A DNA stretch of 64,000 nt. It comes from Olsenella sp. (GTDB lineage: Bacteria; Actinomycetota; Coriobacteriia; Coriobacteriales; Atopobiaceae). The notes under the pieces were generated by a model. It was given only the letters and a program-made list of their open reading frames with translations, ran no database searches and was not told where the DNA came from. The stretch covers positions 186,001 through 250,000 of the forward strand of contig JALCMG010000001.1 of the NCBI GenBank assembly GCA_022648325.1, given 5' to 3'. Below are positions 24,769 through 35,865 of this stretch, one piece after another. Position 1 is the first letter of the stretch, and each line of letters starts with the position of its first letter. A program made the position numbers and the translations under genes.

Positions 24769-25761
24769 CTATCGCAGCTCAAGATCCGCAAGGGCTCCGA
24801 CAACATCGTCCACCAGCACATCGGCGCACTCGCGCACCACCTCGGGCGCACGGTTAAAAGTGTAGGCAACATCTGCCTCGTCAAGAAGCGGCACATCGTT
24901 GAAGGAATCACCAATACCGCCAACCAAACCTAGCCCCAAACGCCCTCGTGCAACGGAAAGCCCAGCACCCTTGGAGCACCCTGCGGGCACTACGTCCACA
25001 GAGTCGAGATTCTGGAAAGCAGAAACCCTGCCCCCAAGCAGCTCACCCACTCCGGCCACAAAACGTGCGGCACACTCCTGGGTGCCAAAACCAAGCGAGA
25101 CAACCTGCACTCCCGTGCCAGCGCCACTATGCGCCATCGCCAAGGCGTCATCGACGGAGCTCACAACCCTAAGCCGTTTGAGAAACGCCTTCGGAAGCCC
25201 ATGGATGCCAGCCCCACCAAGCACCAGGTATCCAGACCCCAATGCTATAAACGGCGGCCGCGATGTCTGTCCACGCGTTGCATCCAGAAGGGCGCGTACA
25301 TCGTCATCGGGAATCTCGCGTGAGAACAGCGTGTTCCCTACTCCATCGCTCACGCATGCCCCACTGCTCGTGATGGCAAAGTCGAAGCTCAGGCTGCTAC
25401 CCGCATCCGCAAGAACAGTGCCGAGCGGACGGCCAGTACACACGCCAAAGAGTCCGCCCCCGGCACGGAACGCCTCAATGGCTTCAAGGTCGCGCGAGAG
25501 GAACCGACGCAACGGATGCGCTCTCCCGCCAATGCCGAAGAAGAGCGTCCCATCAAAGTCGCTCGCCATCGCTCTTCCCACAAAGCCAGCACCCGCCATC
25601 AACAGCCCCCTCAATAACGCAGCCACGTCATCATACCGCGACCAGCCCAAGCTCCATTGAGAAGCAAAGGCGCCACCGCTCGAGACGAGCGACGGCACCT
25701 CGCTGTCGTACAGCAAGCATTCAGCGGCTCCGGCTACTCGCCTGCACCACGTTCCTTCCAT
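24769..25761 (-). CDS. HAD-superfamily phosphatase (Cof-like)
   Basis: Haloacid dehalogenase-type hydrolase of the Cof/IIB class. Motif I is MASDFDGTLFF near residue 65, motif II is in FAITSSGA, and motif IV is GGIGDSFNDVPLLDEADVAY. The 330-residue frame has about 60 residues before motif I, more than usual; ATG 25599 (MAGAGFVGRAMASDFDGT) would give a standard length. The longer frame overlaps the preceding sulfatase-fold gene by 28 bp. It is the last gene of the minus-strand run from 34153. It could dephosphorylate a sugar or polyol phosphate for the envelope genes, but the substrate is not determined. Confidence 0.82.
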   Translation of the reverse strand: MEGTWCRRVAGAAECLLYDSEVPSLVSSGGAFASQWSLGWSRYDDVAALLRGLLMAGAGFVGRAMASDFDGTLFFGIGGRAHPLRRFLSRDLEAIEAFRAGGGLFGVCTGRPLGTVLADAGSSLSFDFAITSSGACVSDGVGNTLFSREIPDDDVRALLDATRGQTSRPPFIALGSGYLVLGGAGIHGLPKAFLKRLRVVSSVDDALAMAHSGAGTGVQVVSLGFGTQECAARFVAGVGELLGGRVSAFQNLDSVDVVPAGCSKGAGLSVARGRLGLGLVGGIGDSFNDVPLLDEADVAYTFNRAPEVVRECADVLVDDVVGALADLELR

Positions 25762-27839
25762 GCCTCTTCGTTACGCCAATCGTTGCCGTCGAGATGCCAG
25801 TTATTGAAATCGGCGACATCGCCAACTATCTGATACTCAATCAAGTCGTAGTCGCGCTTGCCATCGTGAGTAAGCATGCAGTACGTGCGAAGACGATCCG
25901 CAGGATCGTGCCGATCCTCAAGTGCAACGTTGAACTCTCCGTAGTGATCGAGAACTTCCTGCGAGGCACCCATCCCCTTGAGCATTGTGGCTTGGAGATC
26001 TTTGTGGCTCGCCGGCTCTTGGGAGATGACACAGGGAGCCGCGTCTGTCCCAGAGTCCTGTGCTGGCTTCACGAAGATAATGGGCGAGGTAGGCTTGGTA
26101 AGGGGCTCTTCCGTGAGGTACCACTCGCCGTGATCCGCAGTCACGATAATCGTGGACTGATCGTAGACCCTAAGCTCTTTGAGCTGTCTCAAATACTCGG
26201 AAAGGATGCGGAACGTTCCGAGCGTCTGGTCCTCCAGGCTTGTGCCCTCCTCGTTGAGGTTGCCTTGCGCATCCATCGTATAGGGTGTATGCGTTCCCAC
26301 AAGGTGAATAAAGCGGAACGAGGCGTCCTCGCTGTTGATGGAAAGACCTCGCTCCTTGAGCTTTTGGTAGTACGCCGGGTCATTCATAACACAGGGCGTG
26401 CTTGAGGGGTCATCATCAGCGTCACTCGAGAGCATGGCATTGTTGATTTGGTCTGTGTAGTACCAGAAGAACGGCTTAAGCACCCATGGCATGTCGCGAT
26501 AGAGCGAGCACTGGTAGAGAATCGCGAGCGTGCCCCGCTTGTCGAGCGCCTTCGACGCGTCAAGGGGATGCACGTTTATAGTACGAGTCTTTGCATATTC
26601 CGGACTAAAGGAATCGGAGTAGATGCCCGTTGTGTAGCCTTGGGCCGCCACATCATCTAGGAATGTACTTCCAGAATAGAAGCGATCAAAGAAATCATCC
26701 CAGCTCTCCTCGGCCTTGGGATAAGAACCCGTGAGCAGAAATGGAATCCCGTATCGCGTGGGAATCATCGAGCCGGTGCTGTTCTGGTACCACGTGAAGC
26801 CCGTGAACTCGTTGAGCATCTCAGGATGGTTTGCATAGACCGCCTCGGTCTGAAGCGAGTCAACAGTATCAACCACCAACACAATTACATTGCTCTTTCC
26901 CGACACGTCAAACATGCCCTGCTCAGTGGTATAGACGCGCTGACTCTGGACGCTCGAGCCATCCGGCGGAGAAACCCATAGACTCACGACTCCAACAAGC
27001 TGAACAAGCACGAGCACAACGCTGGAGGCCGCCGCAACTGCTCTTCCTGCCCGCCCTCGCTTCACCGTTAGCGTGACAAGGGCAGCCGCTATGCCTCCCC
27101 AGACAAGTGCACTGATCGCAGTAATGGTGTTGTACTGGGTCCAATCAACCAAATTACCGTCAGCAACGGTTAGATCATTGTTGAGGAAAAGAGTCTGGAC
27201 ATATGCTCCAATACCGAAAGCCACAGCAAGGGCGAGGAGCACGTCAAATGCACGCCCGCGAAATGCCGAGAGAATGAAGCCGCAAACAACACCGATGAGC
27301 AGACCCGCCACGAGGATGAGCTTCCATACGCTATCTAGCCCAAAGATGAGAGACGAGGAGTTAGCAGCAACCAGCTCGTAAGGAGCAACTATCAGAACAG
27401 TAAAGGCATCAAAAATGCAAACGAGAAGCGCGAGCACGAGGCGACGGCGCCAGGGAAGGCCGGGCGCGCGATGCTTGGAACCCCCGCGCGCGGCCCCGCC
27501 GCCGGCGGCCAGCGCCTCGCGGCAGGCGGCGTCGGCCGCGGGCTTCGAGGAGGGGTCGATGCGGGAGACCGCGGGCTCCGCCACGCGGCCCGCCCCCTCG
27601 TCTATGTGCAGGATCCTCATGAGGGCCTTGCGCGTGCGCCTGAAGGCCACGCCCAGCACCGCCGAGAGCGCCAACGCCACGGCGGCCAGCGCCTGGATCG
27701 TGTAGGTCATGACCGAGGGGTCCACGTACGCGAGGGCCGGGGTGGCGGGAACCAGCACCCACACGGCCGCGAGGGCAAGCGCGTAGAGCGCGTCGTGCAG
27801 TGCGAGCGCCGGAGCGAGCGTATTTCTCGTGCTTCTCAA
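25734..27839 (-). CDS. LtaS/sulfatase-fold membrane enzyme, paralogue 1 (putative phosphoglycerol or phospho-transferase)
   Basis: A 701-residue membrane protein of the alkaline phosphatase/sulfatase superfamily. The N-terminus has several membrane segments, including AYVDPSVMTYTIQAL, then a charged linker and more membrane segments to about residue 300. The extracellular domain shows the metal-binding Asp324 (VIVLVVDTVDS), a likely Thr nucleophile at 361 (IPTRYGIPFLLTG), HLVGTHTPY, and the metal ligands Asp569-His570 (TADHGEW). Thr rather than Cys fits LtaS or phosphoethanolamine-transferase chemistry and not sulfatases. The start is TTG 27839, since GGAGGA is eight bases upstream and the nearby ATG runs into a stop after three codons. 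Third of three paralogues in the operon. Confidence 0.82.
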   Translation of the reverse strand: MRSTRNTLAPALALHDALYALALAAVWVLVPATPALAYVDPSVMTYTIQALAAVALALSAVLGVAFRRTRKALMRILHIDEGAGRVAEPAVSRIDPSSKPAADAACREALAAGGGAARGGSKHRAPGLPWRRRLVLALLVCIFDAFTVLIVAPYELVAANSSSLIFGLDSVWKLILVAGLLIGVVCGFILSAFRGRAFDVLLALAVAFGIGAYVQTLFLNNDLTVADGNLVDWTQYNTITAISALVWGGIAAALVTLTVKRGRAGRAVAAASSVVLVLVQLVGVVSLWVSPPDGSSVQSQRVYTTEQGMFDVSGKSNVIVLVVDTVDSLQTEAVYANHPEMLNEFTGFTWYQNSTGSMIPTRYGIPFLLTGSYPKAEESWDDFFDRFYSGSTFLDDVAAQGYTTGIYSDSFSPEYAKTRTINVHPLDASKALDKRGTLAILYQCSLYRDMPWVLKPFFWYYTDQINNAMLSSDADDDPSSTPCVMNDPAYYQKLKERGLSINSEDASFRFIHLVGTHTPYTMDAQGNLNEEGTSLEDQTLGTFRILSEYLRQLKELRVYDQSTIIVTADHGEWYLTEEPLTKPTSPIIFVKPAQDSGTDAAPCVISQEPASHKDLQATMLKGMGASQEVLDHYGEFNVALEDRHDPADRLRTYCMLTHDGKRDYDLIEYQIVGDVADFNNWHLDGNDWRNEEAWKERGAGE
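27512..27746. repeat. Copy A of the 235-bp block shared by the three LtaS-like genes
   Basis: Lies inside paralogue 1 and encodes the second membrane segment and the linker (VLGVAFRRTRKALMRILHID). By eye it is about 95 percent identical to copy C; the ~150 bp toward 27746 differ from it at one position. Sequence on both sides diverges quickly. Local G+C is higher than in the rest of the gene. Confidence 0.8.
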
Positions 27840-27942
27840 GTTCTCATTCCTCCTACGTTCCCACCGGCGTCAGCGCCAGATGCGCTCGGCGCAAGACGCC
27901 GAGAAGCGAACGGCATCGGCTGGCATCTCTCGCGCATCCTGT

Positions 27943-30054
27943 CTAGCGCTCGTTCGTCTCCCAGGTGACACCCGTGAGCTGCCAAGAGCTCCAGTCCTCC
28001 ACAGGGCCGATAACGCTGAACTGGTACATATGCGGAGTGTAGTTCCCGTCCCACGTCGGAGCGTCAAAGGCGCGCTCACGCTTGTCGTCAAAAGTAGCCG
28101 CAACGTTGTATGCGGGCGTCCCATACTTCGCCACCAAGGTCTGATTACCGTTGGATGCCTGGTCAATAACAGTCGCAAGCACGTCAGGAGCCCAGACCGG
28201 AGTCGTCTCGTCGATGGAAAGGCCTGTGTGCGCAGCGCCAGCAGGCTTCACGAACAGAATCGGAGATGCGGGCCGCTCAATCGGAGTATCCGACATAAAG
28301 TCAATCCGACCGTGGTCAGCAGTAATGATTACGGTCGTGTTGTCGTAAACGCCAAGCTCCTTGAGGTCATCGAGATAGGTCGAGACTATCTTGAAGGCAC
28401 CAAGTAGCTGCTGATCGTACGTGGTCTCGCCATCCACTCGCTCTCCCTCTGCGTCCATCGTGTATGGGAAGTGCGCACCCAGCAGGTGGATGAACCGGAA
28501 CGAGCCAGTCTCTCCGTCATCGTTGACAGACAGCCCTCGCGCCTTCAGCTGCGAGTAGAACGAAGGGTCATCAAAGTTGTAGGGGATGTCACCAAGGTCC
28601 TCCTGCTGTTCCTTGGGGGTGGACATTCTCTGATTAAGCTCGTCGGTGTAGTACCAGAGGAAGGGCTTAATCATCCACGGAAGGTCACGGTAGAGGGCAG
28701 CCTTGTACATAATCCTTACCGTGCCCTTCTCATCGAGACCGCTCTCGCCACCATCATCAAGGGGGTGGACGTTCTTGGCAAGCCCGGCGAAGGCATTCGG
28801 GTCGCCATGGGTTGTCGAGCCTGAATCCGAATAGACCCCAATGTCATACCCCAAGTCGCTGAGGTCCTTGAGGTAGGTGCTCTTGCCAACAGAAGACTTC
28901 ACGTACTCTTGGAAGTCCTCGCCCTCCTGCGGGAGCTGACCGGTGAGAAGGTAAGAGCAGCCATACCTCGTAGGAGCAAGAGAACCCACAGAGTTCTGGT
29001 ACCAGGTGAACCCGTCGAGGGCATCGAACATCGAGGGATTGTCCGAGTACACCTCTTCCAGGTACTGTGTGTCGGTCATGTCAAGAACAATGACTACCAC
29101 GTTCTTCTTGTCGGAGACATCGAACATGCCCTGCTCTGTGTAAACGTTATCCTGGTCGTTGGGAACGGGGGCAGTAGCGGGGTTGAGCCAGATCGACGCA
29201 ATGGCAACCGCCTGAATGATGATGAGAACTCCCGCAAGCGAAGCGTTCGCAAGGCGTGAGACAGAGGGCTTCCGTACCGCCGCCACAATTGCAACGGCAA
29301 TCAAGGCGGCCCAAATCGCAGCGCTCACGACCATCGGCTGTTTGTAGAGGCTCCAATCAACGAGATCACCGTTGGTGATAGGAAGCGACCCATTAAGAAA
29401 CATCGCCTGCAGATACCCGCAAAGCGTCACCGCCGCAGCAAGCGAAAGAACGACATCAAAGGCGCGCCCGCGAAACACCGAGACGATAAGCGCCAAGACA
29501 ACAGCAACGAGAAGCCCCGCGCGGACGATGGCGGGCCACACAGAGTTAAGGCCATACGTCAGGTCTGCGGTATTCGCCGCCAGCAATTCAAACGGAGCAA
29601 CGACAAAATAGGTAATTGTCAGCGAGACAGAGACCACGAGGGCGAGAAGCAGCCGCTTTGGCCACTTGACGGCCTCCCTGGGGGCACACCTCCCCTCACC
29701 GCGCGCGCTGCCGCCCGCAGCGGCCAGCGCCTCGCGGGCGGCCGCGTCGGCCGCGGCCTTGCCGGAGGGGTCGATGCGGGAGACCGCGGGCTCCGCCACG
29801 CGGCCCGCCCCCTCGTCTATGTGCAGGAGCCTCATGAGCGCCCTGCGCGTGCGCCTGAACGCCACGCCCAGCACCGCCGAGAGCGCCACCGCCACGGCGG
29901 CCAGGGCCTGGATGGTGTAGGTCATGACAGAGGGGTCCACGTAGGCGAGGGCCGGGGTCGCTGGGACCAATACCCATACGGCCGTGAGCGCGACCGCATA
30001 GAGCCCGTCGTGCAGTGCGAGCGCTGGCACCAGCTTTCTGTTCGTGTTTCTCAA
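27943..30054 (-). CDS. LtaS/sulfatase-fold membrane enzyme, paralogue 2
   Basis: A 703-residue protein with the same plan as its neighbours: N-terminal membrane region with AYVDPSVMTYTIQAL, linker, further membrane segments, then the catalytic domain. Key blocks are VVVIVLDMTDT (metal Asp), APTRYGCSYLLTG (candidate nucleophile Thr), HLLGAHFPYTMD and VIITADHGRID. The catalytic domain is clearly more distant from paralogues 1 and 3 than those are from each other, which suggests a different acceptor. The start is again TTG (30054), with GGAG nine bases upstream. Spacing to paralogue 3 is 30 bp and to paralogue 1 about 100 bp, consistent with one transcript. Confidence 0.82.
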   Translation of the reverse strand: MRNTNRKLVPALALHDGLYAVALTAVWVLVPATPALAYVDPSVMTYTIQALAAVAVALSAVLGVAFRRTRRALMRLLHIDEGAGRVAEPAVSRIDPSGKAAADAAAREALAAAGGSARGEGRCAPREAVKWPKRLLLALVVSVSLTITYFVVAPFELLAANTADLTYGLNSVWPAIVRAGLLVAVVLALIVSVFRGRAFDVVLSLAAAVTLCGYLQAMFLNGSLPITNGDLVDWSLYKQPMVVSAAIWAALIAVAIVAAVRKPSVSRLANASLAGVLIIIQAVAIASIWLNPATAPVPNDQDNVYTEQGMFDVSDKKNVVVIVLDMTDTQYLEEVYSDNPSMFDALDGFTWYQNSVGSLAPTRYGCSYLLTGQLPQEGEDFQEYVKSSVGKSTYLKDLSDLGYDIGVYSDSGSTTHGDPNAFAGLAKNVHPLDDGGESGLDEKGTVRIMYKAALYRDLPWMIKPFLWYYTDELNQRMSTPKEQQEDLGDIPYNFDDPSFYSQLKARGLSVNDDGETGSFRFIHLLGAHFPYTMDAEGERVDGETTYDQQLLGAFKIVSTYLDDLKELGVYDNTTVIITADHGRIDFMSDTPIERPASPILFVKPAGAAHTGLSIDETTPVWAPDVLATVIDQASNGNQTLVAKYGTPAYNVAATFDDKRERAFDAPTWDGNYTPHMYQFSVIGPVEDWSSWQLTGVTWETNER
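29727..29961. repeat. Copy B of the 235-bp block shared by the LtaS-like genes
   Basis: Lies inside paralogue 2. Same length and position as copies A and C, with scattered substitutions (for example CTGCGCGTGCGCCTGAACG in place of TTGCGCGTGCGCCTGAAGG), so it is the most diverged copy. Flanking gene sequence is much less similar. Confidence 0.8.
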
Positions 30055-30084
30055 GGTCGAATCTCCTTCATATCCCTGCCGGCG

Positions 30085-32217
30085 TCAGTGCCAGATGCGA
30101 TCCGCATCCTCGTCGGTAATTGTCCAGTCGTTTCCATCAAGGCGCCAGTTCGCGAAGTCCTGGGAATCACCCGAGATCTCATACTCGCGCCAGCTGGTGT
30201 CCAGCTTGCCGTTGCTCGTCGTCATGAGGTAGTAGCGCAGGCGGTCTGCGGGATCATTGCGGTCCTCGATGGCCTGGTTGAACTCACCGTAGTGGTCAAG
30301 GACCTCCTGCGAGGCACCCATTCCCTTGAGCATCGTGGCCTGAAGGTCGTAGTGGCTCACGGGCTGCTGAGAAATCTGGCACGGCACCGAGTCCGCCTCG
30401 GCAGACTGCGCCGGTTTCACAAAGATAATGGGCGTCGAGACGCCGTCCAGAACGTCGGGCGTGAGGTACCACACACCGTGGTCGGCGGTGATGACCACGG
30501 TGGTACTGTCATAGAGGCCCAGCCGCTTGAGCTCGTCGAGGTAGGTGCGCACAATCTTGAATGCGCCAACCATCTGCGACTCCCAGTCGCTAGACTCTGC
30601 AACCTTGTTGCCATCGGCATCCATGGTGTATGGCCAATGCGTACCATCAAGGTGGATGAAGCGGAACGAGGCGTCCTCGTTATCGATGGAGAGACCGTTC
30701 TCCTTGAGCTTCGCAAAGTAAGCCGGGTCATCCATGGCATAAGGGGTGAGGTCCGGAGACGTCCCACTCGTGCTGCTTACCATCCCCTGGTTGATCTGGT
30801 CCGTATAGAACCAGAAGAATGGCTTGGCAATCCACGGCATGTCGCGATAAAACGCGCACTGGTACAGAATGCGGAGCGTACCCTGCCAATCAAGGGCGCT
30901 CTTCGCAACGTCCGAGGTGCTCTCGAAGTTCTCGGCGTGCTGCCCCAGGTATTCGCTCCAGCCATCTATCCAGTCCGCAGAGTCGGAGTAGATGTCCGTG
31001 GTGTAGCCCTGAGCTGCTACATCATCCAAGAAATGGCTGCCCGTGTACATCGAAGCGAGAAAGTCGGCCGCGTCCTCCCCTGCTTGTGGCCGCGCGCCCG
31101 TAAGCAGAGAGGGGATGCCATAGCGCGTCGGGATCATAGACCCCGTACTGTTCTGGTACCAGGTAAAGCCATCAAGTCCATCGAGCATGCCGGGGTTATC
31201 GGCATAGGCCTTCTTGGCATCGGCGGTATCGGTCATATCCAGAACAAAGCACACAACGTTCTTCTTGCCCGAAACGTCAAAAAGGCCCTTCTCGGTGATA
31301 GTAAAGGCCTCGGGCTCGGTGGATGCTTTGGAAACGATACCGACAACGCCAGCAACCTGCACGAGGATGAGTGCGGCACTAGTCACGGCGACAACAATCC
31401 TGCCAGTGCGAGGTCGCTTTGCGACCAGCGACACCAGAACGACGACAATGGCGGCCCACACGAGCAGGCTTACAGCCGTGACGCCACCGTATTGTGTCCA
31501 GTCGACCAGATTGCCATCCGCCACCGGAAGGCTCGAGTTCATGAACAAAACCTCGACGTACGCACCAACGCCAAGGGCAACCACAACCGCAATGATCACG
31601 TCGAACACGCGGCCGCGAAACGCCGTAAGCGCAAATCCGCTCACAAGGGCAGCGGCAAGCCCGGCGAGAACCACGAGCTGCCAAATCTGGCGCACGCCAA
31701 AGAGCAAGCTGCTAGAGCTGCCCGCCACAAGTTCAAGCGGAGCCACCACAAGAACCGTAAGGGCGAGAAACGCGCATGTGAGAAGCGAGGGCGCGAGCCG
31801 GCGCCCCCAGGGCAGGCCGGGAGACCGGCGCTCCCTGCCCCCGGCCGGGGCGCCGCCCGCAGCGGAGAGCGCCTCGCGGCAGGCGGCGTCGGCCGCGGGC
31901 TTCGAGGAGGGGTCGATGCGGGAGACTGCGGGCTCGACCGCGCGCCCGGCCCCCTCGTCTATGTGCAGGATCCTCATGAGGGCCTTGCGCGTGCGCCTGA
32001 AGGCCACGCCCAGCACCGCCGAGAGCGCCACCGCCACGGCGGCCAGCGCCTGGATCGTGTAGGTCATGACCGAGGGGTCCACGTACGCGAGGGCCGGGGT
32101 GGCCATCGCCGTGAGCAGGCAGGCACTTATCGCAGCGAGGCCAAGGACGTCCCACACAAGGACCAGTAGCCGCCCAGCAATGCGGTGCGCACCCGTTAGG
32201 GAGCGGCTACTCATCAT
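30085..32217 (-). CDS. LtaS/sulfatase-fold membrane enzyme, paralogue 3
   Basis: A 710-residue membrane protein of the same family. A hydrophobic start (LLVLVWDVLGLAAISACLL) precedes AYVDPSVMTYTIQAL. The catalytic blocks are NVVCFVLDMTDT, IPTRYGIPSLLTG, HLDGTHWPYTMD and VVITADHGVWY. Its catalytic domain resembles paralogue 1 most, including a similar Cys-containing C-terminal region (PCQISQQPVSHYDLQATML). Start at ATG 32217 or 32214: ATGATGAGTAG overlaps the stop of the preceding YidC-glycerophosphotransferase gene, so translation is coupled and the two proteins probably work together. A longer open frame upstream of 32217 lies inside that gene and is not used. Confidence 0.84.
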   Translation of the reverse strand: MMSSRSLTGAHRIAGRLLVLVWDVLGLAAISACLLTAMATPALAYVDPSVMTYTIQALAAVAVALSAVLGVAFRRTRKALMRILHIDEGAGRAVEPAVSRIDPSSKPAADAACREALSAAGGAPAGGRERRSPGLPWGRRLAPSLLTCAFLALTVLVVAPLELVAGSSSSLLFGVRQIWQLVVLAGLAAALVSGFALTAFRGRVFDVIIAVVVALGVGAYVEVLFMNSSLPVADGNLVDWTQYGGVTAVSLLVWAAIVVVLVSLVAKRPRTGRIVVAVTSAALILVQVAGVVGIVSKASTEPEAFTITEKGLFDVSGKKNVVCFVLDMTDTADAKKAYADNPGMLDGLDGFTWYQNSTGSMIPTRYGIPSLLTGARPQAGEDAADFLASMYTGSHFLDDVAAQGYTTDIYSDSADWIDGWSEYLGQHAENFESTSDVAKSALDWQGTLRILYQCAFYRDMPWIAKPFFWFYTDQINQGMVSSTSGTSPDLTPYAMDDPAYFAKLKENGLSIDNEDASFRFIHLDGTHWPYTMDADGNKVAESSDWESQMVGAFKIVRTYLDELKRLGLYDSTTVVITADHGVWYLTPDVLDGVSTPIIFVKPAQSAEADSVPCQISQQPVSHYDLQATMLKGMGASQEVLDHYGEFNQAIEDRNDPADRLRYYLMTTSNGKLDTSWREYEISGDSQDFANWRLDGNDWTITDEDADRIWH
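31869..32104. repeat. Copy C of the 235-bp block shared by the LtaS-like genes
   Basis: Lies inside paralogue 3. The last 150 bp (toward 32104) match copy A with one difference by eye. The remainder has roughly ten differences clustered around 31925-31950. Confidence 0.8.
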
Positions 32218-34153
32218 TGTCGCCCTGATTCCCCGTCCCAAACGCGCCAGCCGCGGTAATGTCTTTGCCCTCCTGCTTTGCGAGAATCTCGCCGAGGATG
32301 TACTTGCCGGCCGCCTCGCCGCCGTGGCCGAGGTTGTAGATGAAGCCGTCGCGAATCTGGCGGATCCTGTCGTTCCAGGCAGAGGAGTTCGTGACCATGT
32401 CGTCGATGACATCCTCTAGCTCCGAGAGGTCCTTGGGGTCGAGCGAGCGGCCAATCTGGTTACGCAGCGTGATGTCGGTGGGCGTAATGCCAACCTGCTC
32501 GTAGTCCGGGTTGATGACCTTCATGGGGGTGTCGATGAAGAGCGACGGCTTGAGCGTGGTGAACGAGAACTCCTCGGCGATTGTCGACCAGTCGGTAATC
32601 AGCACATCGGACTCGAGGATTGAGGAATGGCCGGAGAAATCACCCTCAAAGACCAGCTCGTCCTTGGGCACCTTGGCATAGCGCTCGACCAGTGCCTCCC
32701 AGCGCGGGCGGTAGCGCTTCACATACTCCGGGTGCGGGCGGACAATAACGCGATACCCGTAGCCGAGGAGCCTCCCCAGCATGTCGTCGATGCACACGTC
32801 CAGGATGTTGTCCTGGTTCCAGGAGGGGGCAATGAGAATGACGGGTTTCTCGTGCGCCACCTTTGGCATGGCCTCGTAATCGGCAATCTCGCGGTCGAGG
32901 AGGTCGTAGCCAATCTTGGGGAGCTTCTTTCTGAGCGTGTGGTAGACCTCCTCCATGCGACGAAGTTCGCGACGCTGGTGCGGCCCCACACACATGATGG
33001 TGTCGTAGTTGTCGTACTCCTGCTTGGTGCCCGTCATGTGCATCGAGGTCATGTGGTGGCACATGTAGATGTACTCGATGTCTTTGCGGATGTACGAGCG
33101 CTTGATGTAGTACACGTCAAGCGCGCCGAGCGAAGTCACCACAACGTCCGCGTCCATCTTCATCATCAGGGTGATGAGGCGCTTCTGGTCGAGGAAGTAC
33201 GGGATGAGGCGCGGCTCGCGCTTGGCGATGTCAAAGACCTGGTCGTTGGGATCGCTCGTGAGGTAGTGGATGCGCACGTCGGAGTTGTTGAGCAGCCACT
33301 CGATGGCACCCTGGAAGTACTTGTAGAAGCCCGAGCTCTCCGAGTAGAACACCAGGTGCTTGCCGTCCACCTTGAAGAAGCGCTTGTAGTCCGCCTTGGC
33401 GCGGCGGGCCAGCGGGTCTGGCTGGTACCACTTGCGGTCGCCCTTGGTGGCCTCCTCGATGGCGTTGAACTCGTCGCGCGCGGCGTTGAGGTCCTCGTAG
33501 TCGATGTAGCCGCGCGGCTTCATGATTACGTTGCACAGCGCCTGCACCGCAATTGAGAGCAGGTTGGAGCACACCCAGTAAAACGCCATGCCGCACACCA
33601 CGTAGAAGCCCAGGAAGAGCGAGAGCGCAATGGAGAGGCCGTTGGTCATGTTCTTCTCGGCACGGGACTGCTCGCGCTGGAGGGGGTTGATGTGGTTGGA
33701 CGCCCAGCCCATGATCACGGCCGAGAGGCCTGCGAGCAGCGGCATGATGAGCGACGCCCCGCCGTTCTCGATGGGTACGAGGCCGAGGAACTCGGTGCCA
33801 GGGGCTCCGGAATCCGTGATGGAGTGGATGACGTCAACCAGGCCAAAGAGGATGACCACCTGGATGGCCAGGGGAATAAGCGAGAGAAGCGCATGGTAGT
33901 GCTTCTCGTGGTAGAGCTCGTTCTGCTTCTCTTCGATGGTCTCCCTATCACCGTAGTAGCGGCACTTGATGCGGAACAGCTCGGGCATGAGCTGCACCAT
34001 CACGATGCTGTTCTTCTGGCACCACACCGAGAGGGGCATGAGAATCACCTTGGAGAACAGGGTGAAGAGAAAGATTGCCACCCACCAGCTGCCGGTGAGG
34101 TCGTAGGCCGGCTGCACAATGAGTGAGAAGAAATTCGCTAGCGCCTCAAACAT
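32207..34153 (-). CDS. YidC/Oxa1-type membrane domain fused to CDP-glycerol glycerophosphotransferase
   Basis: A 648-residue two-part protein. Residues 1 to about 225 look like a YidC/Oxa1 insertase: five hydrophobic segments, an early FTLFSKVILMPLSVWCQKNS and LLSLIPLAIQVVILFGLVD. Residues from about 270 look like a TagB/TagF glycerophosphotransferase: YIYMCHHMTSMHMTG, KPVILIAPSWNQDN, VIVRPHPEYVKRY and VLITDWSTIAEEFSF, near the order seen in teichoic acid polymerases. The usual TagF membrane attachment appears to be replaced by a polytopic domain. The 3' end overlaps paralogue 3. Start at 34153 follows GGGAG. It likely transfers glycerol phosphate from CDP-glycerol to an envelope acceptor; whether the YidC part still inserts proteins is unknown. 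Confidence 0.85.
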   Translation of the reverse strand: MFEALANFFSLIVQPAYDLTGSWWVAIFLFTLFSKVILMPLSVWCQKNSIVMVQLMPELFRIKCRYYGDRETIEEKQNELYHEKHYHALLSLIPLAIQVVILFGLVDVIHSITDSGAPGTEFLGLVPIENGGASLIMPLLAGLSAVIMGWASNHINPLQREQSRAEKNMTNGLSIALSLFLGFYVVCGMAFYWVCSNLLSIAVQALCNVIMKPRGYIDYEDLNAARDEFNAIEEATKGDRKWYQPDPLARRAKADYKRFFKVDGKHLVFYSESSGFYKYFQGAIEWLLNNSDVRIHYLTSDPNDQVFDIAKREPRLIPYFLDQKRLITLMMKMDADVVVTSLGALDVYYIKRSYIRKDIEYIYMCHHMTSMHMTGTKQEYDNYDTIMCVGPHQRRELRRMEEVYHTLRKKLPKIGYDLLDREIADYEAMPKVAHEKPVILIAPSWNQDNILDVCIDDMLGRLLGYGYRVIVRPHPEYVKRYRPRWEALVERYAKVPKDELVFEGDFSGHSSILESDVLITDWSTIAEEFSFTTLKPSLFIDTPMKVINPDYEQVGITPTDITLRNQIGRSLDPKDLSELEDVIDDMVTNSSAWNDRIRQIRDGFIYNLGHGGEAAGKYILGEILAKQEGKDITAAGAFGTGNQGDNDE

Positions 34154-34325
34154 TATCTGTTACTCCCAGAGTTTTTAAGCTGATATTGGGACCGTGCTAC
34201 CTTACCACGAGAGAACAGTTAGATTACCTTTTTTTAACGCACTCATGAACCTGCTATGCCACACGTCAGGACGCATGAGCTGCGTTATCCTCATGGCAAG
34301 TGGAGGTACTGCGAGAGGGGCAAAC

Positions 34326-35558
34326 ATGGTTTTAGGCAATACCGTGCTGGTGGGACAGTCCGGCGGACCCACAGCAGCGATTAACGCAAGCCTCGCGGGG
34401 GTCGTGGATGCCGCACGCGCCGCTGGCCTTCACGCCGTGGGCATGCGCTACGGAATCCAGGGGCTTCTCGACGGCCGTACCGTTGACCTGGACGAGCGGC
34501 TTGCCAGCCCCGCCCAGCTGGAGCTTCTCTCGCACACGCCCTCCAGCTACCTGGGGAGCTGTCGCTACAAGCTGCCGGACCCCTCCACGGACGAGACGCC
34601 CTACCGCACGCTCTTCAAGCGCTTCTCCGAGCTTGACGCCTGCGCGGTGCTCTACATTGGCGGCAACGACTCCATGGACACCATCGCCAAGCTCTCCCGC
34701 TACGGCAAGGCCACGGGCTCAAAGATCCGCTTTGTGGGCGTGCCCAAGACCATCGACAACGACCTCATCCTCACCGACCACACGCCTGGCTACGGCAGCG
34801 CGGCCAAGTTCATTGCTGCCACCGTGGACGAGCTGGCCTGTGACGCCGACGTCTACGACCTCAAGAGCGTCACCTTTGTCGAGATCATGGGCCGCGACGC
34901 CGGCTGGCTCGCGGCGTCTGCCGCGCTTGCCGGCGAGGCAGGCGGCCACGCGCCAGACCTGGTGCTTCTTCCCGAGGTGTCCCTTGACGAGCAGAACCTT
35001 CTCCAGAGGATCGCGGATCTTCTCGATAAGAAGAACACCGTGGTTGTAGCCGTAAGCGAGGGCGTGAGAACTGCCGACGGAACGCTCATCTGCGAGCGCG
35101 CGGACTCCACGGCACGCCTCGACGCCTTTGGGCATGCCGCGGCGCTTTCGGGAACGAGCCGCTATCTGGCAGACCTTGCCAAGCGCGAGCTTGGATGCAA
35201 GACGCGTGCAGTCGAGCTGTGCACCACGCAGCGCTGCGCAGCCCACCTCGCAAGCCAGACCGACCTCACCGAGGCGGCTGGCCTTGGCGCCCGCGGAGTG
35301 AACGCCGCGCTCGAGGGCGCCTCCGGAGTGATGAGTGTACTCGTACGCACGTCCAACACGCCTTACGAGGTTCGCTACGAGCTGGTCGACGTGAACCGTG
35401 TGGCAAACGCCGTGAAGGCCGTACCAGAAGAGATGATCAGCGAGGACGGTATGGGCGTGGCCGAGGCGTACCTGCGCTACGCCCGGCCGCTCATTGCCGG
35501 CGAGCCGTCGCTCTCGTTTGTGGGCGGCGTGCCGGCGCACGTGGCACCGCTGGCGTAA
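34326..35558 (+). CDS. 6-phosphofructokinase, pyrophosphate-dependent type by active-site residues
   Basis: Phosphorylates fructose 6-phosphate in glycolysis. The 410-residue protein has GQSGGPTAAINASL at the start, GGNDSMDTI at 112-120 and PKTIDNDL from 140. In PFKs the phosphoryl donor follows two positions: ATP enzymes have Gly in GGDGS and Gly in PGTIDND, while PPi enzymes have Asp and Lys. Here they are Asp115 and Lys141, so PPi is the predicted donor. Start at 34326 (MVLGNTVLVGQSGG) has GAGAGGGG upstream; a longer frame to 34194 lacks homology. It is divergent from the glycerophosphotransferase operon across 172 bp. Confidence 0.9.
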   Translation: MVLGNTVLVGQSGGPTAAINASLAGVVDAARAAGLHAVGMRYGIQGLLDGRTVDLDERLASPAQLELLSHTPSSYLGSCRYKLPDPSTDETPYRTLFKRFSELDACAVLYIGGNDSMDTIAKLSRYGKATGSKIRFVGVPKTIDNDLILTDHTPGYGSAAKFIAATVDELACDADVYDLKSVTFVEIMGRDAGWLAASAALAGEAGGHAPDLVLLPEVSLDEQNLLQRIADLLDKKNTVVVAVSEGVRTADGTLICERADSTARLDAFGHAAALSGTSRYLADLAKRELGCKTRAVELCTTQRCAAHLASQTDLTEAAGLGARGVNAALEGASGVMSVLVRTSNTPYEVRYELVDVNRVANAVKAVPEEMISEDGMGVAEAYLRYARPLIAGEPSLSFVGGVPAHVAPLA

Positions 35559-35720: not shown

Positions 35721-35865
35721 CGATACACATTCGCCGTACGAATGTGTATCGACCTGCGCGGGTCACAGATTCGGGTGCGAATGTGTATCGACCTGCGCGG
35801 GTCACAGATTCGGGTGCGAATGTGTATCGACCTGCGCGGGTCACAGATTCGGGTGCGAATGTGTG
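35721..35865. repeat. Perfect 39-bp tandem repeat array with leading palindrome
   Basis: Three identical 39-bp units start at 35740, 35779 and 35818 (GAATGTGTATCGACCTGCGC, then GGGTCACAGATTCGGGTGC), with a partial fourth. The array is preceded by the palindrome CGATACACATTCG / CGAATGTGTATCG at 35721-35751 with a 5-bp loop. There are no spacers, so it is not a CRISPR. The rest of 35559-36141 holds no supported gene. A diverged array lies at 5255-5346. Confidence 0.85.

Follow-up and report, generated by a model that had tools for sequence, protein, structure and literature searches.

What could a membrane insertase domain do for a TagF-like transferase to which it is fused? The question is raised by a gene in a stretch of 64,000 nucleotides from Olsenella sp. 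(assembly GCA_022648325.1, contig JALCMG010000001.1, positions 186,001 to 250,000 of the forward strand), hereafter the window, to which coordinates refer unless a locus is named. An earlier note on this DNA described the gene at 32207..34153 as a YidC/Oxa1 domain joined to a cytidine diphosphate (CDP)-glycerol glycerophosphotransferase, and called the architecture unusual. In this study, the domains, relatives and gene neighbourhoods of the fusion were analysed computationally. New are the identical distribution of the fusion and an LtaS-like protein over 56 genomes, at least eight open frames in which three parts are joined, the association with LicA-LicC and the phosphonate genes near the fusion. 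This shared distribution, the joined chains, the links to donor genes and the predicted folds are computed results. We tentatively favour the reading that the fusion and the LtaS-like enzymes form a predicted trans-membrane relay, which would load small groups activated by CDP or cytidine monophosphate (CMP) onto membrane lipid.

The fusion gene and its two halves

The gene and its discussed parts are the following.

32207..34153, minus strand: fusion gene, YidC half plus TagF-like half, 648 residues; open frame; Pfam matches to both halves and an NCBIfam match to the YidC half
33518..34108, minus strand: YidC/Oxa1-type membrane half, residues 16-212; in our reading of the model, five membrane helices with the cytosolic hairpin kept
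34049..34051, minus strand: codon of K35, at the site of the groove arginine in ordinary YidC; K in 55 of 56 aligned sequences
32270..33367, minus strand: TagF/TarL-like GT-B transferase half, residues 263-628
33056..33058, minus strand: codon of H366, invariant in the 56 sequences and a candidate catalytic base
32732..32734, minus strand: codon of H474, a candidate for binding the donor phosphate, within the RPHP motif; R472, P473, H474 and P475 each in 56 of 56

The 648-codon frame covers 32207-34153 exactly and without interruption. It lies on the minus strand, a point that the earlier note had left unstated; the plus strand there has stops. In Pfam, residues 23-208 matched 60KD_IMP (YidC/Oxa1) at 97.5 bits (cut-off 35), and residues 374-537 matched positions 126-289 of the 367-position profile Glyphos_transf (PF04464) at 28.7 bits (cut-off 22.1); the NCBIfam model TIGR03592 (yidC_oxa1_cterm) scored 84.4 bits, barely above its cut-off of 84.3. 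Among the best 120 relatives, 119 covered at least 96% of the protein at an identity of at least 62%, and the fusion is therefore far beyond chance; the remaining one (P0058) covered 68% of the fusion. An artefact or frameshift is ruled out by the open frame and the full-length relatives. A rare architecture is likewise ruled out, and the claim of unusualness had to be given up, since the YidC-TagF-like fusion is a large family. Matches to the fusion at E ≤ 1e-3 were obtained for 7574 of 8000 scored candidates, a number to which either half contributes and which is thus not a number of fusions. The closest named relatives, with 92-94% identity, belong to Tractidigestivibacter and Olsenella. 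Few relatives carry a source name; most of these names are YidC/Oxa1 insertase or membrane protein, and some are hypothetical. Certain relatives fall under the Glyphos_transf cut-off (L036, 16.7 bits; L062, no match).

Neighbourhoods were compared for the best 80 of 153 fusion loci, of which 59 entered the tables, 39 from Coriobacteriia (one being a metagenome-assembled genome, MAG, labelled Actinomycetes) and 20 from elsewhere; the other 21 were short contigs, fragments or near-duplicates, some set aside by hand choice. Conservation was read from 56 sequences, namely that of the window and 55 relatives, after L042, L060, L069 and L070 had been dropped for in-frame stops in the matched stretch. 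The fusion was also observed on MAG contigs labelled Victivallales, Planctomycetia and Lentisphaerae (L054, L058 and L082), by gene transfer or binning error.

The N-terminal half proved to be YidC-like, as the earlier note had proposed, by its Pfam and NCBIfam matches, both above the domain cut-offs, and by a predicted structure with the whole YidC fold and the cytosolic hairpin; a positively charged residue is kept at the groove position. This residue, K35, aligns with R35 of the only ordinary YidC that the genome also encodes (254 residues), a position which we take to act in the hydrophilic groove of YidC. The N-terminus of YidC lies outside; with five helices, as read from the model, the transferase half would face the cytosol and its pool of CDP- and CMP-donors.

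The TagF-like nature of the C-terminal half was equally borne out, by the Pfam match and by structure comparison. TagF and TarL are its nearest transferase structures, at about 16% identity in the structural alignment, and a sequence search of the PDB with the fusion did not reach TagF. Besides H366 and the RPHP motif, D521, W522 and S523 are invariant in the 56 sequences. H366 is presumably the histidine of the TagF WHG motif; H366 and H474 were tentatively paired with H444 and H612 of TagF by motif rather than superposition, and an alignment with stand-alone relatives sets a histidine opposite H367, one place off. A second Glyphos_transf protein was not found in the genome of the organism.

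The distances of the two halves correlate (r 0.84 over 1540 pairs), and 22 supported splits are shared, of 28 and 35 in the two halves, with four conflicting pairs. Both halves look used, because each holds residues that are invariant over the alignment.

The LtaS-like partner

The fusion was surveyed in 296 genomes of the class Coriobacteriia. The fusion query matched 286 of them at E ≤ 1e-3; the fusion-specific part was present in only 56, among the matches listed down to E 3e-13, and the listed places in the remaining genomes were mostly ordinary YidC together with a few stand-alone TagF-like proteins. Fusion genomes were chosen by hand once the list had been viewed, at an identity of at least 41% to the fusion-specific part; the count of 56 omits stand-alone TagF-like matches (23-27% identity) and includes G200 and G279, in which the gene is split over contigs. 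An LtaS-like query, with the best three candidates per genome scored, matched 56 of the 296 genomes at E ≤ 1e-30, a threshold below which weaker relatives may exist in the other 240. The two sets are identical, the same 56 genomes.

Fusion and LtaS-like gene share a contig in 53 of these genomes, and in 50 of them the distance is within 700 bp. It is larger in G291 (762 bp), in G237 (3.4 kb) and in G114 (570 kb to the closest copy scored, though nearer ones may exist); in G245, G249 and G259 the two have no common contig. At the Coriobacteriia loci of the neighbourhood tables, including the MAG labelled Actinomycetes, an LtaS-like gene stands within 700 bp in 32 of 39, always on the same strand. 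In at least eight genomes the YidC, TagF-like and LtaS-like parts form one open frame of 1373-1430 residues, with both queries matched over nearly their whole length (G035, G047, G130, G154, G209, G240, L036 and L068). The six survey genomes among these represent two families and five genera; G035 and G047 have equal match values and may be near-identical copies. Such a chain, with a catalytic part inside, a membrane groove and a catalytic part outside, provides the best hint of a trans-membrane hand-over. The earlier note had supposed that LtaS-like proteins are encoded next to the fusion and linked to it; both points held, the link far more strongly than that note could know.

In the window, three such genes follow the fusion on the same strand.

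30085..32217, minus strand: LtaS-like protein 1; Pfam Sulfatase 25.6 bits (cut-off 25); seven hydrophobic segments
27943..30054, minus strand: LtaS-like protein 2, 703 residues; Sulfatase 21.7 bits, under the cut-off of 25
25734..27839, minus strand: LtaS-like protein 3, 701 residues; Sulfatase 14.5 bits, under the cut-off of 25
24769..25761, minus strand: HAD-type phosphatase, last gene of the run and an uncertain member of the system; Hydrolase_3 52.7 bits

The stop of the fusion (TAG, 32209-32207) overlaps the start of LtaS-like protein 1 (ATG at 32217-32215 or 32214-32212), as read from the sequence. A listed frame of 775 residues (30085-32412) has an over-long start within the fusion gene; translation most likely begins at the ATGATG of 32217-32212. 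LtaS-like proteins 3 and 2 are 49% identical as aligned. A PDB profile search with 34 family members gave LtaS as the best match (2w5q, 6.5e-13; 2w5r, 9.6e-13); D325, H528, D580 and H581 are invariant in these 34 and T362, the candidate threonine nucleophile, is nearly so. The NCBIfam LtaS equivalog (cut-off 970) gave 14.7 bits, 20.3 bits and no match for the three neighbours, which rules out LtaS proper at that cut-off. They are named only LtaS-like because a single one, LtaS-like protein 1, passes Sulfatase and none reaches the equivalog cut-off. Hydropathy gave seven segments also for LtaS-like protein 3, six for LtaS-like protein 2 and five for one clostridial LtaS-like protein. The HAD-type phosphatase was near the fusion in five of 59 loci, all close relatives.

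Several further observations concern these genes and their surroundings. Over the roughly 150 bases that encode the AYVDPSVMTYTIQALA module, the three tandem LtaS-like genes (25734-32217) are 92-95% identical, and their other 150-base blocks are 36-81% identical, as if the module were homogenised or under special constraint. The stand-alone TagF-like proteins L105-L110 start with YIDPGTGSMLFT..., similar to the AYVDPSVMTY... module of the LtaS-like proteins; stand-alone TagF-like and LtaS-like enzymes possibly have one membrane module in common. On the other side of the fusion gene, a perfect tandem repeat (35739-35864; 39-base unit, 3.2 copies) lies directly downstream of the frame 34194-35558, presumably a phosphofructokinase. 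A scan for promoters and terminators yielded two promoter-like sites, no excess over the shuffle mean of 2.7, and 12 terminator-like sites versus 7.4 in shuffles, which were not used for any conclusion.

Genes for donor activation

Neighbour clustering and named-query searches revealed two recurring partners of the fusion, LicA-LicC and phosphonate synthesis. LicA-LicC is a choline/ethanolamine-kinase-like domain fused to an NTP-transferase, to which several loci add an EamA (LicB-like) transporter. It was present in 53 of the 56 fusion genomes (all except G083, G089 and G231) versus 63 of the 240 others. As Fisher values ignore shared ancestry, the association is also given by family and genus: within the organism's own family it was found in 26 of 28 versus 17 of 61 genomes, and among the genera of that family in 11 of 11 versus 6 of 14. 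LicA-LicC lay within 10 kb of the fusion in at least 16 of the 56 genomes, compared with a chance rate of 2%, calculated on the assumption that a genome of 2.3 Mb has two lic places.

Phosphoenolpyruvate (PEP) mutase was encoded within 10 kb of the fusion at nine of 59 loci, eight of them among the 20 outside the class and the ninth being L062. All seven tested of the nine passed the NCBIfam cut-off, the remaining L058 and L069 being assigned by tblastn only, and phosphonopyruvate decarboxylase passed its cut-off in five of five loci tested. Within the class, ten of 296 genomes had PEP mutase and six of these carried the fusion (Fisher 0.004). The cassettes of L065 and L080 run from the fusion through a nucleotidyltransferase, PEP mutase, an Fe-ADH protein and phosphonopyruvate decarboxylase to an LtaS-like gene, some genes overlapping; in L080 the nucleotidyltransferase and PEP mutase are one protein. 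The Fe-ADH proteins of L065 and L070 stayed under every equivalog cut-off. The final gene of L080 matched Sulfatase above the cut-off (48.2 bits), and that of L065, with no Pfam match, is LtaS-like by tblastn alone (210 bits). In L054 the order is LtaS-like, fusion, PEP mutase, decarboxylase and NTP-transferase/2-aminoethylphosphonate (AEP) aminotransferase. Within the cassettes, the fusion is by elimination, which is not proof, the only cytosolic protein resembling a user of CMP-phosphonate.

These links bear on the substrate named in the earlier note. The assignment to a TagF-like family stood, through the PF04464 match above its cut-off. For many family members, CDP-glycerol is probably not the donor, because genomic context ties the fusion to LicA-LicC and phosphonate activation instead. 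The genome of the organism itself has two LicA-LicC frames and two LicD proteins, so that LicA-, LicC- and LicD-like genes are all present. PEP mutase and with it a pnt system were not found in this genome, which rules out its fusion as a phosphonate enzyme. An obvious TagD was not found among three cytidylyltransferase-like hits, which by length and context look like NadD, CoaD and RibF. From this gene content, CDP-choline appears the likeliest donor in the organism and CDP-glycerol less likely.

Two side observations concern the lic genes. LicC-like proteins with an N-terminal winged-helix (MarR/HTH) domain scored above the cut-off at L097:3192-4079 (own genome), L035:14161-16737 and L075:12276-13172, and slightly under it at L097:7684-9495 (own genome); the activating enzyme may thus regulate its own locus. 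An ATP-binding cassette (ABC) uptake system with an SBP_bac_6-type binding protein, an ATPase and a two-domain permease adjoins the lic genes (L097:4100-7538, own genome, C4), and its substrate could be choline or phosphonate.

The proposed relay and its rivals

In the relay that we propose, the TagF half would act in the cytosol and attach a CDP- or CMP-activated group to a membrane lipid. In this organism the group would be phosphocholine taken from CDP-choline, and in others an aminoethyl- or hydroxyethylphosphonate taken from a CMP-phosphonate. The hydrophilic groove of the YidC half may present the lipid acceptor to the TagF half, the loaded head group may then cross the membrane through this groove by analogy with lipid scrambling, and an LtaS-like enzyme outside may move the group to a surface polymer; these last three steps are the least certain. 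The donor, the lipid acceptor and the direction of the relay are what we infer. The groove step is included because a preprint (PMC10491306) reports lipid scrambling in liposomes by E. coli YidC and other members of the Oxa1 family, with the insertion channel as the path. It is possible, though doubtful, that a surface-decoration machine has recruited an insertase fold for membrane crossing, with one polypeptide, which in at least eight genomes would include the LtaS-like part, loading phosphocholine or phosphonate head groups onto a lipid, flipping the loaded lipid via the groove and depositing the group outside.

Each component has known counterparts. The fusion resembles TagF and TarL of wall teichoic acid synthesis in its GT-B fold, PF04464 match, WHG-like histidine and RPHP motif, but it has a YidC domain instead of the TagF N-terminal domain, links to LicA-LicC or phosphonate genes and an LtaS-like partner. 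With the YidC/Oxa1/Alb3 insertases it shares the YidC fold, the cytosolic hairpin and the charged groove residue; it differs by its C-terminal transferase domain and by coexisting with a separate ordinary YidC. The partners resemble LtaS and other transferases of the alkaline phosphatase superfamily, LtaS being the best PDB match of their profile, but they are far under the equivalog cut-off, have an extra two-segment N-terminal module and are sometimes fused behind YidC-TagF. In the lic and pnt pathways, as outlined in sections of PMC6697681, phosphocholine or AEP is likewise activated by CTP for surface tailoring, whereas the neighbouring machinery described there is LicD-like phosphotransferases or glycosyltransferases. 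The same sections report that PntC of Atopobium rimae makes CMP-AEP, with lic genes relatively near, and name A. rimae and O. uli, members of the same class, among the examples; the main text of that paper has no occurrence of yidc, tagf or glycerophosphotransferase. Extracts of PMC6381275 mention YidC solely as the insertase of LcpA, and extracts of PMC10234575 treat strain-variable tag/tar genes in E. lenta without the word yidc. No description of a YidC-TagF-like fusion was found in the titles and abstract starts of the open-access papers that searches aimed at it listed, which is not proof of absence; the earlier note's proviso that this might be a well-characterised family was accordingly not seen to apply.

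A number of findings weigh against the relay. LicA-LicC occurs in 63 genomes and PEP mutase in four genomes of the class that have no fusion, so the donors have other users. In the organism itself the lic genes are on other contigs than the fusion, PEP mutase was not found, and there are the two LicD proteins. LicD proteins are the usual phosphocholine transferases and would draw on the same donor as the fusion; perhaps the fusion loads lipid and LicD decorates glycan. GT-B epimerases equal TagF in Z for the transferase half, and plain hydropathy gave four membrane segments in the YidC half, not five. A function of the groove would rest on one conserved lysine, the predicted fold and analogy. 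Outside the class, an LtaS-like gene was within 700 bp, on the same strand, at only nine of 20 loci; a clostridial LtaS-like query matched somewhere in 12 of 16 such genomes and not in the other four, among which L058 has a weak match (72 bits) adjoining the fusion and ended by the contig edge. The idea of alkaline-phosphatase-superfamily replacements beside the fusion in L060 and L082, whose genomes are among those unmatched by the LtaS-like query, gained no support from Pfam and PDB searches and was not used.

A serious competitor, rather doubtful in our view, holds that the YidC half is only a membrane anchor and docking platform that takes the place of a YIDPGTG-type segment and moves nothing. 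Six stand-alone TagF-like proteins of the Coriobacteriia bear such a short N-terminal membrane segment instead of the YidC half, and TagF itself is membrane-bound. Near-invariant positions (97% or more) make up an equal share of the YidC half (30 of 212) and the TagF half (51 of 366), which also speaks against the relay, as the extra conservation of the YidC half is for this reason modest. However, the mean distance is smaller in the YidC half (0.406 versus 0.465), and an anchor needs neither the conserved K35 nor the cytosolic hairpin and whole YidC fold that have been kept. If the YidC half instead served the LtaS-like proteins as their own insertase or chaperone and the transferase half were a passenger (the earlier note raised the idea of such an insertase), the identical genome distribution and mostly adjoining genes would be expected, but the invariant residues of the transferase half and the links to LicA-LicC and phosphonate genes would be left unexplained; moreover, in the three-part frames the LtaS-like part belongs to the same polypeptide, and the genome already has an ordinary YidC; we consider this improbable. 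It also seems unlikely that the fusion feeds a lipoteichoic acid pathway as an ordinary polymerase of glycerol phosphate or ribitol phosphate, with CDP-glycerol or CDP-ribitol as its donor. The PF04464 match, the structural nearness of TagF and TarL and the LtaS-like neighbours agree with such a polymerase, and ten NTP_transf_3 hits in the genome, few of them assigned, leave room for another cytidylyltransferase; the lack of an obvious TagD and the nature of the linked donor genes, LicA-LicC and phosphonate synthesis, disagree with it.

If the relay is real, the YidC fold would have a dedicated scramblase or flippase role, for which the fusion would be a natural single-protein construct, and the missing transferase step of phosphonyl tailoring, the user of CMP-AEP, would gain a candidate. 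The relay would also give access to the surface polymers by which Coriobacteriia of the gut and mouth bear on host immunity. A large family whose named database copies mostly go under YidC insertase is probably one of surface-decoration enzymes.

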